This document shows, in pieces, positions 16,964 through 21,264 of a DNA stretch of 64,000 nt. A program made the position numbers and the translations under genes. Each line of letters starts with the position of its first letter. The stretch's first letter is position 1. The notes under the pieces are model-generated. The model made no database searches. It saw only the letters and a list, made by a program, of their open reading frames with translations, and was not told the origin of the DNA. This DNA comes from Opitutus terrae PB90-1 (lineage in GTDB: Bacteria > Verrucomicrobiota > Verrucomicrobiia > Opitutales > Opitutaceae), in the NCBI RefSeq assembly GCF_000019965.1, contig NC_010571.1:3543001-3607000 (forward strand), read 5' to 3'.

Positions 16964-17604
16964 GCACGCTTGCTACTGGGGAGCGCGGCGGCTCGCGGAG
17001 GTGGCACGAGCGTCTTGCCCGTGTTGGATCATGGTTCTCGGTCTCAAACGGGAGCCGCGGTTGGGAGGCGGTTGCAACCAACGTAAAGCCGCTCGCGCGG
17101 ACCACCGGCGCGACGCCCGTGCTACGTTGGGCGCTCGCAGGTTTGGGGGTGGCACTGTTGCTCGCGGCCGGCTGCCGCACCGTCTCGGACGAGCATCGGC
17201 CGGCAGCCATCGCGCGCTTTTATCTCGAAACCGATGCACCGCACGGCGTGCCCGTGGTGCTGCCGAGGAGCGGCGTGCAGATCGTGATCGGAGCGAAGCC
17301 GGTGTTTACCGAGTACGACCTGACGCACGTGGAAGTCGCGGAAGTCGAGCTGGGCCGCTGCCTGCGTTTTCAACTCACCGGCGAAGCGGCGCGCGATTTG
17401 CGCCGGATGATGCACGTATATCCCGGACGGCGGCTCGTGCTGCTGCTGAACGGGGATCCGTTGGGGGCGCGGCGGATCGACGCAGCGCTGAGCGACAGAG
17501 CGATTCTCGTGTTCGTGGAGTTGCCCGATGAGGAACTGCCGCGGTGGACGGAGCAGCTGCAGCGAACCACCGCCCAACTGCGCCGGAGCGCGAAGCCATT
17601 GTGA
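16960..17604 (+). CDS. Putative lipoprotein with SecD-P1-head-like domain; 5' end contains a repeat
   Basis: 214 residues from the ATG overlapping the hemW stop, but the first ~53 codons are largely family A repeat sequence. A GTG at 17119 (161 residues) would give a clean lipoprotein signal with LAAGC and Cys19, so this internal start may be the real one or the original one. The mature domain (LTGEAARDLRRMMHVYPGRRLVLLLNG and later IDAALSDRAILV) resembles the SecDF P1 head fold in layout; this is a weak, by-eye similarity. Its stop overlaps the GTG start of the M23 peptidase gene, suggesting coupled expression. Confidence 0.65.
   Translation: MSTLATGERGGSRRWHERLARVGSWFSVSNGSRGWEAVATNVKPLARTTGATPVLRWALAGLGVALLLAAGCRTVSDEHRPAAIARFYLETDAPHGVPVVLPRSGVQIVIGAKPVFTEYDLTHVEVAEVELGRCLRFQLTGEAARDLRRMMHVYPGRRLVLLLNGDPLGARRIDAALSDRAILVFVELPDEELPRWTEQLQRTTAQLRRSAKPL
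17001..17126. repeat. Family A repeat halves within a coding 5' end, copy 2
   Basis: GTGGCACGAGCGTCTTGCCCGTG (17001-17023) and the inverted CGACGCCCGTGCTACG (17111-17126) are degenerate family A halves separated by unrelated sequence, inside the open 5' region of the gene at 16960. Confidence 0.6.
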
Positions 17605-18653
17605 GTTCCACCGATCGTCCCTTTGTCTCTCGAATTCTTTGGCGCAGCGCCGCCGCGGTGTGGCTCGCGCTTTTCGCGGGCGCGTCGGCATTCGCGGGCA
17701 TGCGCATCGAGATCAGCTGGCCGACGCCCAGCACCGCGTGGGCCGAAGGTCGGCCCGCCCGGGAGATTTTGCAGCACGCGGGTTCAGGCGAACCGGAGTC
17801 GGGCGGATTCGGCGGCGTGCGGAGCAACGGCACGCAGTTTCACGAGGGGATCGACATCAAGCCGCTGAAACGCGATCGGCGCGGCGAGCCGCTGGATGCG
17901 GTGTTCGCGGCGATGAACGGCGTCGTGCGGCACATCAGCACCGTCGCTGGCAACAGCAGCTACGGCCGCTACCTCGTGCTGGAACATCCGGAGAACGACG
18001 TCTCTGTTTACACGCTCTACGCGCATCTCGCGCGGATCGCTCCCGGGCTGAAGGTGGGCGATCGAGTCGAGCGTGGGCAAACCCTCGGCACGATGGGGCA
18101 CACGGCGGGGGGCTACGTGATCCCACGCGAGCGCGCGCACCTGCACTTCGAGATCGGGCTGATGGTGACGCGGGATTTTCAAGCCTGGTATAACGCGCGA
18201 AAATTCGGGAGCCGAAACGAGCACGGGCTGTGGAACGGCATGAACCTGATGGGCATTGATCCATTGGAGTTCATGAACCAGTGGAAGGCCGGGAAGGTGG
18301 ACTCGTTTGCCGGATATTTCGCGCGGATGACACCGGCGGTGCGCGTGAGGATTGCGACGCCGCGCGTGCCGGATTTCATCACGCGTTATCCGGCGCTGCT
18401 CGCAGGTCCGATGCCGCTCGCGATCGCCGGCTGGGAGATCAAGTTCAACGAGACCGGGCTGCCGTTTTCGTGGCGACCGCTGGTTGCTGCCGACATCGCC
18501 GGGCTCACGCCGAACCGGCCGCTGATCGAGGAAGTCGATCGCGCGGTGGAGCGACGCGACCGGAGCAAGGATCTCGCCGTGCAGCGCCGCGGCGCGTGGG
18601 TGATCGGCGCCGACCTGAACTCCGTCCTGCAGCAACTCTTCGGCCTGCGCTGA
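17601..18653 (+). CDS. Secreted M23 family metallopeptidase
   Basis: 350 residues from a GTG overlapping the previous stop (GTGA). A signal peptide (hydrophobic residues 16-30, cleavage near AFA|G) precedes a lysostaphin-type M23 domain. Zinc ligands are His81 and Asp85 in FHEGIDIK and His182 in HLHFEI, with His180 also part of the site. M23 enzymes cut peptidoglycan cross-links or act as cell-wall remodelling factors. The 130-residue C-terminal extension (after ~220) is unrecognised. Translational coupling with the lipoprotein gene suggests a joint envelope role. Confidence 0.88.
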   Translation: MSSTDRPFVSRILWRSAAAVWLALFAGASAFAGMRIEISWPTPSTAWAEGRPAREILQHAGSGEPESGGFGGVRSNGTQFHEGIDIKPLKRDRRGEPLDAVFAAMNGVVRHISTVAGNSSYGRYLVLEHPENDVSVYTLYAHLARIAPGLKVGDRVERGQTLGTMGHTAGGYVIPRERAHLHFEIGLMVTRDFQAWYNARKFGSRNEHGLWNGMNLMGIDPLEFMNQWKAGKVDSFAGYFARMTPAVRVRIATPRVPDFITRYPALLAGPMPLAIAGWEIKFNETGLPFSWRPLVAADIAGLTPNRPLIEEVDRAVERRDRSKDLAVQRRGAWVIGADLNSVLQQLFGLR

Positions 18654-18740
18654 ACGCCAGCGAGCAGGCGAGAGCGACGAGGAGCGAACGGAGAATTTTG
18701 TGCGGTTTTGAGGTCGGCTCCTGTATAGAGGTGAATCGCC

Positions 18741-20279
18741 ATGATCGAGGATCTGGAATTGCTTCGCCGCTACGCCGAGACCGGCTCCGAAGCAGCCTTC
18801 GCGGAATTGGTGCGGCGGCGAATCGGGCTGGTCTACTCCGTCGCGCTGCGGCACACGCGGGACCCACACCTTGCGCAGGATGCCACCCAGACTGTGTTCG
18901 CGGACCTAGCACGCAAGGCGGCCACCCTGTCGAAGCAGACGGTGCTCATTGGCTGGTTCCATCGCAGTGCGCATTACGCGGCGATGAACATCATGCGCGC
19001 CGAGTGGAGCCGCTCGGCGCGCGAACGGGAGGTGCAGCACATGCACAGAGTCTTCGCGGGCGAGCAACCGCCTGAAGCTTGGGAGAATGCCCGGCCTCTC
19101 TTGGACGAGGTGTTGAGCGAATTGGAAGCGAAAGATCGCGATGCAATCCTGCTCCGGTATCTCGATGGGTGTGGTTTTGCGGAAGTGGGAGCTAGGCTTG
19201 GGCTCAGCGAGAATGCGGCGCGGATGCGCGTGGACCGTGCGCTCGACAAGCTGCAGGCGGGATTCGCCCGCCGGCGTCTGACTTCGTCCGCCGCGGTGCT
19301 GGGAACGGTGCTGGCGCAGCAGGCGCTCGCGGATGTGCCCGCCGGTTTGGCCTCCGTGGTGGCGCACGCGGCGCTCTCCTCGGCCGCAGCCGGCACCGCG
19401 CCCGCGCTCACGTTCGTTCAAATTATGACCACAACCAAGATGATCGCGAGTGTCGGTGGCTTGGCCCTGACCATGGCGATAGTTGGCGCGGGTTACCAGA
19501 TGCACGTCCGCCGTGCCGCCGAGACGGAACTCAACCGCGTTACGCAGGAGCATGGCGCATTGAACACGAAACGGGAAACGCTCGAACGAGCCGCCGCGGA
19601 CGCGGAGAGGCATGTGGCAGAACTAAAGCAAGCGGCGGCAGAGGCCGAGACCAAGCGCATCGCGCAAGCCACCGCCGCTCAGCAGCTGGCCGCACGACAT
19701 GCCAACTGGAATCCAACCGCGGAAGGCAAGGCGCTGCTCGAACGCTATCCTGAGCTGAAGAGTTGGGTGCAGACGGTTGCAGACGCCGGATTCGAGTCGA
19801 GGTTTGGCGGGTTTTGTCGATCGCTGGGACTGAATCCGGAGCAGGTCGCACAGCTCCGGATGATTTACCGGGAGTTCTCGTCGATGGGCGCGACATTCAG
19901 GGGTGAGATGGTGTCGCTACCGGCCGGCAGGGGCATATCGTGGCAGGAAAGCGACCGGGCCTTGCGCGCACTGCTTGGCGACGAGAACGCCACGAAGTTC
20001 CGCGAATACGGTCGAGGGAATCTCGACCGCAGGCTCGCGACGCAGCTCGCTAAGGCACTCTGCTTTAGCGATGCACCGCTGACTCCTGCGCAATCGGCCT
20101 ACGTGGTTCAGCTCATCGGTGAAAGCCGCGGCCGTGACGCCAAAGGCGCTCCGGGTCCTGTCGACTGGGATCGTGTGGTGGCCGAAGCGAAAGACCGGCT
20201 GTCGACCGACCAGCTTGCGGCGCTGCAAGCGATGCGGCCGGATGCGGCGGTGGATGCGTTGTTTTTCCAACCGGACTGA
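18741..20279 (+). CDS. ECF-type sigma factor fused to a membrane anchor and extracytoplasmic domain
   Basis: 512 residues. Sigma-70 region 2 spans about 8-95 (AQDATQTVFADLARKA, GWFHRSAHYAAMN) and region 4 about 118-178 (RDAILLRYLDGCGFAEVGARLGLSENAARMRV, a helix-turn-helix). An Ala-rich linker leads to a single transmembrane helix (234-253), a Glu/Lys/Ala coiled coil (255-318) and a helical C-terminal domain with LGLNPEQVAQL (362-372). If the topology holds, DNA-binding parts face the cytoplasm and the C-terminus the periplasm, so sensor and sigma factor are one chain. AGAGGTGA before the ATG is a good Shine-Dalgarno site, unusual here. The partner gene follows after 10 nt. Confidence 0.9.
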   Translation: MIEDLELLRRYAETGSEAAFAELVRRRIGLVYSVALRHTRDPHLAQDATQTVFADLARKAATLSKQTVLIGWFHRSAHYAAMNIMRAEWSRSAREREVQHMHRVFAGEQPPEAWENARPLLDEVLSELEAKDRDAILLRYLDGCGFAEVGARLGLSENAARMRVDRALDKLQAGFARRRLTSSAAVLGTVLAQQALADVPAGLASVVAHAALSSAAAGTAPALTFVQIMTTTKMIASVGGLALTMAIVGAGYQMHVRRAAETELNRVTQEHGALNTKRETLERAAADAERHVAELKQAAAEAETKRIAQATAAQQLAARHANWNPTAEGKALLERYPELKSWVQTVADAGFESRFGGFCRSLGLNPEQVAQLRMIYREFSSMGATFRGEMVSLPAGRGISWQESDRALRALLGDENATKFREYGRGNLDRRLATQLAKALCFSDAPLTPAQSAYVVQLIGESRGRDAKGAPGPVDWDRVVAEAKDRLSTDQLAALQAMRPDAAVDALFFQPD

Positions 20280-20289
20280 TCCACCCACC

Positions 20290-21264
20290 ATGAAAGCCTT
20301 TGTTATTGGATCTGTGCTCGTCCTAGTCTTCGCGGTCGTCGGTGTGGGCTGGCGCGAATCGAGTCGGGCGCGTGAAACGCGGGCTGCTGTGACTGCCCGC
20401 CAACGCGACAACCTTCGGATCTCAGCGGCCATCGCTGCAGCCGAGCAGAGGCGGGCGGCCGCCGAAAGCGAAGCGGCTGCACAGCAGAACCGGCGGGAGG
20501 CGCTCGAACACGCGAATGCTCCGAAACCGCCGACTGAGCCAAAGCCCGGAAGCTTCGATCCGGTGGTCCACTATCGAAAGATGCGGGAGCGTGAACGGGA
20601 TCCGAAGGTGCAAGCGGTGCGCTTGGCCGCGCTTCAGGCTGGCGATAGGGTGAACTACGGGACGCTGTTTCGCCGGCTCGGATTGAGTCCGGAACAGATC
20701 GATAAGTTCAGCCGGATCATGCTGCGGCGGCGCGAACAGGTGTGGGACCTCCATGATGTGCTCGACGAGGCCGCGGCTCAGGGGCCGGTCGCGAAGGAAA
20801 CCCAAGCGGCGGTCGCGAAGCTGCGAGCTGAGGCCAAAGCGGAGTGTGAGTCCGCGCAACGGGAATTACTGGGCGAATTGGGCTATCGGGAACTGCGCGA
20901 ATACGAACGCTCGCTGCCGGCGCGGACGACCGTCAGCGATATCGCCGGCGCTGCGGTGCTTGCGGGGAGTCCATTCTCCGTGCAGCAGGCCGAGCAACTG
21001 ACCGCGATCGTCGCCAACGCGAGCAGCGACTATCGCGAGGGCCGAGTGGCCAGTGACCGAACGATTGACTGGACGGCGGCCGATGCGCAGGCGAGAGGCG
21101 TGCTGTCGGCTGAGCAATGGGAGTTCTTTCGGGCGGTCGATCCGCCGACGTCGCCTGGCGGTCGGTTTCGCGGCGGTCACGCGCAGCAGTTGATGGAGCG
21201 GATTGCCCGTGCGGAGGAAGAACGCGAGAAGAGCGGGACCACCGTGGTCGCACCAGGCGGATGA
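20290..21264 (+). CDS. Membrane-anchored protein paired with the ECF sigma factor
   Basis: 324 residues. An N-terminal membrane helix (3-20) is followed by a coiled coil rich in Ala, Arg and Glu (about 28-78), a Pro-rich hinge and a helical domain with LGLSPEQIDKFSRI. This copies the post-sigma architecture of the upstream protein (TM, coiled coil, LGLNPEQ), so the two probably arose by duplication and may interact outside the membrane. The LxLxPEQ motif also recalls the LTxxQ motif of Spy/CpxP/CnrX sensors, a fold-level guess. It starts 10 nt after the sigma gene and has no recognised family. Confidence 0.75.
   Translation: MKAFVIGSVLVLVFAVVGVGWRESSRARETRAAVTARQRDNLRISAAIAAAEQRRAAAESEAAAQQNRREALEHANAPKPPTEPKPGSFDPVVHYRKMRERERDPKVQAVRLAALQAGDRVNYGTLFRRLGLSPEQIDKFSRIMLRRREQVWDLHDVLDEAAAQGPVAKETQAAVAKLRAEAKAECESAQRELLGELGYRELREYERSLPARTTVSDIAGAAVLAGSPFSVQQAEQLTAIVANASSDYREGRVASDRTIDWTAADAQARGVLSAEQWEFFRAVDPPTSPGGRFRGGHAQQLMERIARAEEEREKSGTTVVAPGG

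Follow-up and report, generated by a model that had tools for sequence, protein, structure and literature searches.

A 64,000-nucleotide stretch of the Opitutus terrae PB90-1 genome (contig NC_010571.1, positions 3,543,001 to 3,607,000; hereafter the window, with positions counted from its first letter) carries two adjacent plus-strand genes that encode a sigma factor with a predicted membrane anchor and a related partner protein. The first, P0001 (18741-20279, 512 aa), begins as an extracytoplasmic function (ECF) sigma factor and continues in the same chain through a linker, a transmembrane (TM) segment and a long helix into an LTXXQ-like helical domain. The second, P0002 (20290-21264, 324 aa), starts 10 nt after the P0001 stop codon and comprises an N-terminal signal anchor, a long helix and the same domain, without a sigma part. 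The initial annotation of the locus had proposed this layout, and it holds: matches to sigma regions 2 and 4 pass the Pfam and NCBIfam cut-offs, a hydrophobic segment lies at residues 234-252, and the LGLxPEQ motif that it had pointed out occurs as LGLNPEQ and LGLSPEQ, one form in each protein. Its suggestion that the sensor is built in likewise agrees with the presence of a sigma part and a sensor-type domain on one chain. No separate anti-sigma gene adjoins the pair, as P0001 is followed by P0002 and then by a minus-strand open reading frame (ORF).

In the sigma part of P0001, region 2 (residues 1-95; 18741-19025, plus strand) contains a Pfam Sigma70_r2 match at residues 23-89 (E 5.7e-7), and region 4 (residues 110-182; 19068-19286, plus strand), which includes the recognition-helix residues N158 and M162, contains a Sigma70_r4_2 match at 121-171 (E 2.6e-11). 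The NCBIfam sigma70-ECF model matches above its cut-off (6.5e-17), with no region 3 match listed, and TIGR02989, which describes a Rhodopirellula/Verrucomicrobium ECF subfamily, scores 48.5 bits, below its curated 124.55 bits. The predicted sigma fold resembles SigW, SigE and CnrH (VIA Z 13.0, 12.8 and 11.6, respectively); region 2 superposes on that of SigW and SigE with a root-mean-square deviation (rmsd) of 1.5-1.7, and region 4 matches 3hug with a Z of 9.4. The alignment-defined linker that follows (19287-19439, plus strand) is conserved around P200 (VPAGLASVV) and K233 (TTTK); both residues are invariant in 24/24 rows of one alignment (A1), and K233 is just nearly invariant in another (A3).

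Downstream of the linker, a hydrophobicity scan places the single TM segment of P0001 at residues 234-252 (19440-19496, plus strand; Kyte-Doolittle mean 1.66) and that of P0002 at residues 3-21 (20296-20352, plus strand; best segment 2.52). Each is followed by a long helix, modeled by AlphaFold as continuous over residues 249-321 of P0001 and 2-75 of P0002, of which residues 253-321 of P0001 (19497-19703, plus strand) form a probable coiled coil. The coiled coil of the initial annotation is thus consistent with a continuous predicted helix in both proteins, as judged from the AlphaFold models. The predicted local distance difference test (pLDDT) values in P0001 are mostly 78-90 past residue 260 of the long helix and fall below 50 in the linker and TM segment (195-253). 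The C-terminal domains (C-domains) span residues 332-504 of P0001 (19734-20252, plus strand; delimited by a C-domain hidden Markov model (HMM) and by hhalign to a Metal_resist set) and residues 98-287 of P0002 (20581-21150, plus strand; delimited by the same HMM, AlphaFold and VIA). Structure prediction of each protein alone, as the initial annotation had suggested, models these helical domains with confidence: the P0001 domain is well predicted, and the P0002 model is nearly all-helical with a mean pLDDT of 86.9 and values mostly above 90 in the LTXXQ-like domain. The two domains are homologous, as a P0001 search finds the P0002 region at 25% identity (E 4.7e-8) and the partner-domain profile matches the fused-domain profile with 100% probability (E 8.5e-45).

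The initial annotation could name no family for this arrangement. This view no longer stands, as membrane-fused ECF sigma factors have been described (PMC8999054) and the C-domain is a remote relative of the LTXXQ/Metal_resist sensors of the CnrX/Spy/CpxP superfamily. Specifically, hhalign aligns the C-domain with a reference set of 30 Opitutaceae Metal_resist matches (7/30 above and 23/30 below the Pfam cut-off) at 87.6% probability (E 3.5e-6); the alignment spans 107 columns and takes in both LTxxQ motifs. Partners alone reach 74.7% and fused domains alone 73.0%, and reversed controls stay at or below 0.2%. CnrX itself is assigned to the LTXXQ/Metal_resist type, which also comprises Spy, CpxP and ZraP. 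A Pfam search over 29 aligned members gives weak LTXXQ matches in 4/29 (best 0.014), a Metal_resist match in 1/29 (0.0072) and SAM_SMF matches in 7/29 (best 3.1e-4). In structural terms, residues 115-215 of the P0002 model match CnrX, Spy and NE0167 at VIA Z 5.4-5.7, which is under the trusted level for helical folds, and several designed helical bundles reach Z 5-7. The top Foldseek/VIA rows for P0002 are two Bacteroides proteins of outer-membrane or sugar-binding type, 3g6i and 3kdw (Z 7.5 and 7.3), which align with model residues 104-310 and cover more of the model than CnrX; at an rmsd of 9-9.5 they were not taken as relatives, although they may be related. Foldseek returned no match at E <= 0.001, and a search of PDB sequences with the C-domain profile gave nothing below E 0.02, most of the hits being coiled coils or cytochrome-b562 fusions.

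The same bacteria also contain sensor and sigma genes of this kind in unfused form. In 27/30 Opitutaceae Metal_resist loci, the Metal_resist gene has an ECF-like ORF no more than about 1.5 kb away, and in 27/30 loci an ORF of 70-260 aa with a hydrophobic stretch, chosen by position, size and codon score, ends just 5' of the Metal_resist gene. The position of the sigma gene varies, being 3' of the sensor (L310, L283) or 5' of the small protein (L287, L299). The gene order of cnrYXH is small protein, sensor, sigma. In the genome of P0001 itself, the L310 locus (G000:C1 near 2206879) encodes a small one-TM protein, a Metal_resist-type sensor and an ECF sigma factor in a cnrYXH-like triad, whose first two genes overlap by four bases; L282 (near 5695200) has the same order, and the third Metal_resist match of this genome, L301, has the small protein, with no ECF gene found in its stretch. 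At the P0001/P0002 locus, the sensor-type domain and the sigma factor are instead fused in one chain and a second sensor-type protein is added. Since these bacteria keep the triads too, fused and unfused designs can be compared side by side.

These triads and the remote Metal_resist relationship could point to a cobalt- or nickel-type metal sensor, in effect a fused CnrX-CnrH. We consider such a function very unlikely, as conserved His, Cys or Met columns are absent from the alignment of 77 domains (top values 30%, 4% and 17%, respectively); in the fused-domain subset, one His column near the domain start reaches 51%. The small upstream proteins are also of interest for the linker, as those beside seven Metal_resist genes (L286, L287, L295, L297, L299, L300, L304) have in common a P-x-G-F/L-A/G-T-R motif similar to the PxGLA linker of the fused sigma factors. 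Compared by hhalign with these seven small, CnrY-like (Y-like) proteins, which were picked for carrying the motif after the likeness had been spotted by eye, the linker gives 9% probability and E 0.0035 over 23 columns, and 14 controls give E >= 0.28. No match appears when all 27 Y-like proteins (E 0.18) or just the 20 others (E 0.12) are used. The idea that the linker may be a built-in anti-sigma element is therefore a lead only.

P0001 is not an isolated case: it belongs to a family that extends across the Verrucomicrobiota and whose tails are interchangeable. Its own genome (a single contig of 5,957,605 bases) has seven sigma-TM genes; the other six keep the sigma-linker-TM start, and only one of them (L012), which has no partner, carries the same C-domain, while the other tails differ. 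Matches to P0001 occur in 118/120 Opitutaceae genomes, many in the sigma part alone, and matches to P0002 in 85/120; at least 22 Opitutaceae genomes, including that of O. terrae, have a match covering both sigma part and C-domain. Relatives are furthermore present in other Verrucomicrobiota records among the best 80 matches, and the C-domain profile matches 35/240 genomes sampled across the phylum (E <= 1e-6). Runs of four or five sigma-TM genes occur at three loci (L246, L248, L259).

The tails of these sisters bear on the membrane side of the C-terminus. Among 62 sister tails without the P0001-type C-domain, considered for the first 25 of 49 listed families, 10/62 match TonB_C, while SecDF_P1_head, Poly_export/SLBB and Big_1 have one or two matches each, with a single one for SecDF_P1_head and for Poly_export (all E <= 0.01). 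All of these are domains located outside the cytoplasm, which argues that the C-terminus lies there as well. Additionally, a protein with one TM segment whose sigma domain must meet RNA polymerase should have its C-domain in the periplasm. The initial annotation had treated a cytoplasmic C-terminus as the result that would speak against it, and this would indeed be the case if the stretch were no TM anchor, or if P0001 had a cytosolic regulatory tail as in ECF41 and ECF42. Such a topology could draw on the weak hydrophobicity of the P0001 segment and on the Lys and Arg residues around the TM segment, which are more numerous on the C side (mean 2.11 vs 1.06 across 36 members of the family); by net charge, it is the N side that is slightly ahead (0.89 vs 0.33), so that flanking charges do not decide the topology. 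The Ala-rich linker could also make a second hydrophobic helix, but even its most hydrophobic window falls clearly short of the TM segment (family medians 4.8 vs 1.6 on a summed scale on which lower is more hydrophobic). Together with the sister tails and with the signal-anchor-like N-terminus of P0002, which precedes a homologous domain, this makes a cytosolic tail quite unlikely.

The partner gene is a recurrent companion of the fused sigma factor. In the fetched Opitutaceae loci, 24/43 sigma-domain ORFs have a partner directly 3', with the P0001/P0002 pair counted; the 43 include L091, L097 and L098 from regions not selected by a full-length P0001 match, and without them 22/40 are paired. 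Another 4/43 sit at contig or stretch ends. Candidate start codons overlap the preceding stop by 4 nt in many of the pairs (ATG in 12/24, GTG in one), which would indicate coupled translation. In a tree of the domains, from which two of the 24 paired fused domains were omitted as too short, 18/22 paired fused domains form one clade (96/91), and most of the 27 partners fall outside it in mirrored subclades with unsettled bootstrap support. The clade holds one row labeled as a partner (L111_7476); this row overlaps with a sigma ORF in a different reading frame, possibly as the tail end of a sigma gene with a frameshift. The most informative case is a 733 aa frame in the single-contig genome G004 (L089:4468-6666, minus strand) with the order sigma-TM-domain-domain, in which, according to a quick tree, domain 1 joins the fused lineage (97) and domain 2 the partners (86). 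As this protein carries both domains in one chain, with no TM segment between them, it provides the best evidence that the two work together and on the same side of the membrane.

The initial annotation had left open whether the partner is a decoy or a co-sensor. A co-sensor is favored because partners and fused domains form largely separate, co-diversifying lineages and because L089 joins the two in a single chain, and the decoy half of the proposal found no support. A negative partner that merely ties up P0001 or its ligand and damps the response could be imagined, since P0002 has the same domain without the sigma part and, being translated together with P0001, could compete with P0001 homodimers; 14/43 sigma-domain genes, moreover, manage without a partner domain despite room for one. 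Such a decoy appears unlikely, as the L089 fusion and the partners' mostly own lineages with mirrored subclades suit an obligate subunit better than a recent copy, although both observations are compatible with an inhibitory subunit as well. Pairing of related kind may extend to sigma-TM genes with other tails, 12/78 of which (42 with a close same-strand neighbor) precede an N-terminal-TM protein of 130-520 aa, compared with 21/636 other genes (182 with such a neighbor), as counted with a simple purpose-made gene caller. In 11 of these 12 neighbors the start looks coiled-coil-like by eye.

A further result, new here, is a bipartite promoter-like motif upstream of the family's sigma genes. The initial annotation had suggested looking for such a shared motif, and the site before P0001 reads TTTGTGCGGTTT-N15-TATAG (18697-18729, plus strand), with 12 nt from the end of TATAG to the ATG. 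The family form is TTTGTNCGGTTT, a 16 nt spacer and TAtag; it precedes most sigma-TM genes, mostly 6-20 nt 5' of the ATG. Because the start codon lies so near the -10 part, the P0001 transcript would probably be leaderless or nearly so. A position weight matrix (PWM) built from 36 sites in other genomes gives the P0001 site a score of 26.6, compared with 10.5 for the next best site in the window and 16.6 for the best in 10 shuffled windows. Scores of at least 15 occur upstream of 79/94 family genes, some of them from genomes that supplied training sites, and of 4/600 random stretches. The 79/94 splits into 50/52 'Opitutaceae' and 29/42 'other' genes, labels that are rough, being taken from record titles with a few inconsistencies, so that the total is used here. 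In a pattern scan of 120 Opitutaceae genomes, 14/14 exact matches lie just 5' of family sigma genes; with one mismatch, 20/28 lie directly before sigma genes, four more do so on checking (L193, L195, L196, L200), and 4/28 (L194, L197, L198, L199) do not. The match at L194, with a small ORF after it, could be the trace of a decayed member of the family or belong to a different target. Two-mismatch matches, mostly unchecked, include many chance hits according to a reversed-pattern control. In the genome of O. terrae, all four pattern matches are sigma-TM genes; the PWM over these pattern loci gives a next best score of 17.0 at L136, and the L012 site is weak (8.5).

The bases of this motif covary with the sigma factors that follow it. 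The set comprises 102 genes with a PWM score of at least 15 and an N-terminus that fits a text pattern, drawn from two overlapping genome collections with identical protein segments removed. Mutual information pairs the variable -35 base with recognition-helix residues 158 and 162, and the -10 bases with region 2 residues 38, 55, 59, 76, 79, 82, 83 and 90. The resulting code is as follows: at motif base 5, in the -35 part, N158 with M162 goes with G (32/33), D with M goes with T (32/32) and D or E with K goes with C (25/25); at motif position 24, in the -10 part, C accompanies D, Q or E as residue 83 (48/48), G accompanies K or R (26/26), and N is found mostly with T (14/23). Counting as consistent the pairs of motif positions 0-12 with residues >= 110 or of positions >= 19 with residues <= 100, 18/20 top covarying pairs are -35/region 4 or -10/region 2, compared with 38% of all pairs and at most 12/20 in 20 shuffles; after a 70% identity filter, the only step that removes close segments (68 rows), 17/20 are consistent. 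Leave-one-genome-out prediction is correct in 92/98 cases, compared with a mean of 72.7 and a maximum of 83 when promoters are shuffled within genomes. Two paralogues of P0001 (L014, L015), among the genes dropped from the set, show N/M with G by eye.

Because -35 and -10 bases covary with region 4 and region 2 residues, each family sigma factor probably reads its own promoter, with paralogues falling into distinct specificity classes. For P0001 this would mean recognition of 18697-18729 by its own sigma part, and the site fits the -35 rule (N158, M162, G at base 5). Alternatively, the motif might serve a different sigma factor or some DNA-binding regulator and be shared through common ancestry, in keeping with its presence before paralogues with different tails and with the -10 mismatch of the P0001 gene itself. 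This is rather improbable given the strength of the covariation (z 14.3 vs up to 6.8 in shuffles) and the fact that the -35 code holds among paralogues inside one genome.

Control by a membrane-anchored anti-sigma factor is the most widespread known mode of ECF sigma regulation (PMC8103513). One close likeness is to CnrYXH of Cupriavidus metallidurans, in which an ECF sigma factor is under a membrane-anchored periplasmic helical sensor (PMC7689651, PMC4598750). There, sensor (CnrX), anti-sigma factor (CnrY) and sigma factor (CnrH) are three separate proteins, whereas P0001 fuses sigma factor and sensor-type domain; the P0001/P0002 pair furthermore has no adjoining anti-sigma gene, a longer domain, unconserved metal ligands and two sensor-type chains. 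The IutY protein of Pseudomonas putida (ECF243) unites an ECF sigma factor with a membrane-bound anti-sigma part and is released through proteolysis by Prc and RseP (PMC8999054). It serves iron-starvation surface signaling with a fused anti-sigma factor, whereas P0001 has no anti-sigma Pfam match up to E 1. The actinobacterial ECF48, ECF52 and ECF53 groups have C-terminal parts with one or two TM helices (PMC8999054) and are described with a zinc-finger anti-sigma domain, for which P0001 gives no match up to E 1; ECF57 has C-terminal extensions (PMC8999054), commonly WD40-like. Matches of P0001 to SnoaL_2 or TPR extensions of the ECF41/ECF42 type were likewise absent up to E 1. The planctomycete ECF01-Gob group also consists of ECF sigma factors with a C-terminal extension. 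A literature search on ECF with Verrucomicrobia, Planctomycetes or transmembrane did not name the family, and the 2021 ECF classification may hold these proteins as sequence groups.

The available data are compatible with a model, held with a confidence somewhat above even, in which P0001 is an autoregulated, membrane-anchored one-chain ECF sigma factor with a mixed CnrX-like sensor pair that is released or switched by an envelope signal. The conserved linker and a single TM helix would connect the sigma part with an LTXXQ/CnrX-like domain in the periplasm, and P0002 would be anchored beside P0001 as a second CnrX-like protein, the two forming a mixed dimer or oligomer through helices and domains. 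Without a signal, the sigma part would be held inactive at the membrane, possibly with the PxGLA linker serving as an anti-sigma peptide. An envelope signal would alter the domain pair and set the sigma part free. The likeliest means would be cleavage within or close to the TM segment, as happens in IutY, with a conformational change of the kind proposed for CnrX as the alternative; in this release step our confidence is lower than in the model as a whole. The freed sigma factor would then transcribe from its own promoter at 18697-18729, yielding more P0001 and P0002, and from further targets. For the family at large, we give even chances to a scheme in which one module of sigma factor, linker and TM segment is combined with sensors that are interchangeable and lie in the periplasm, in many cases together with a sensor subunit encoded alongside, and in which a promoter code insulates members from many of their paralogues, with recognition-helix residues 158 and 162 fixing one -35 base and residue 83 contributing to one -10 base of a member's own promoter.

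Several observations weigh against this model. With regard to the domain, neither P0001 nor P0002 matches Pfam LTXXQ or Metal_resist up to E 1, hhalign in global mode gives lower probabilities (51.0% for all, 32.0% for partners, 22.3% for fused domains), and the VIA scores of CnrX and Spy lie below those of unrelated helical rows. As to topology, the P0001 TM segment is weakly hydrophobic and the excess of Lys and Arg lies on its C side. Regarding the partner, 15/43 sigma-domain genes have none despite room (14 if L089, which has the domain in-chain, is set aside), the main partner grouping is weakly supported in the domain tree, and of the 22 paired fused domains four (L081, L082, L086, L097) group elsewhere than in the main fused clade. 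In the single genome of the same genus that was searched, a C-domain gene occurs as an orphan, no pair is present and the best P0001 match is at 3.9e-8; the gene pair that the initial annotation proposed to look for in other Opitutaceae is conserved there and absent from this same-genus genome. Concerning the promoter, the P0001 site has a spacer of 15 rather than the usual 16 and misses the -10 rule, with N83 and C at position 24 as in 3/23 N83 genes, which slightly lowered our overall confidence. Finally, pattern scans of the O. terrae genome, in which the PWM was not run genome-wide, found no clear such promoter outside the family.

Few membrane-fused ECF sigma factors have been studied so far, and the family gives a handle on many unexplained Verrucomicrobiota sigma genes. 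If the family scheme is true, its members would be one-chain switches from the outside to the gene that do not need a separate anti-sigma factor. The promoter code makes both mechanism and paralogue insulation testable, and it could yield orthogonal regulators.

Additional observations concern the surroundings of the family. At L246, L248, L259 and G023:C102 (L109, L110), four to six sigma-TM genes stand in rows with differing tails. In the O. terrae genome, L013:4407-8886 (minus strand) holds two adjoining sigma-TM genes, the downstream one with a tail that looks TonB_C-like by eye, after which comes a free-standing TM-helix protein of a different type, and L016:5149-6372 (plus strand) is a sigma-TM gene whose tail appears ExbD-like by eye. 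An orphan stand-alone C-domain protein is encoded at L017:4977-6035 (minus strand), in a stretch without a sigma neighbor or promoter motif, and similar orphans are present in other Opitutaceae genomes. Immediately 5' of the P0001/P0002 pair, the gene at 17544-18653 (plus strand) has, by eye, the look of an M23-type peptidase.

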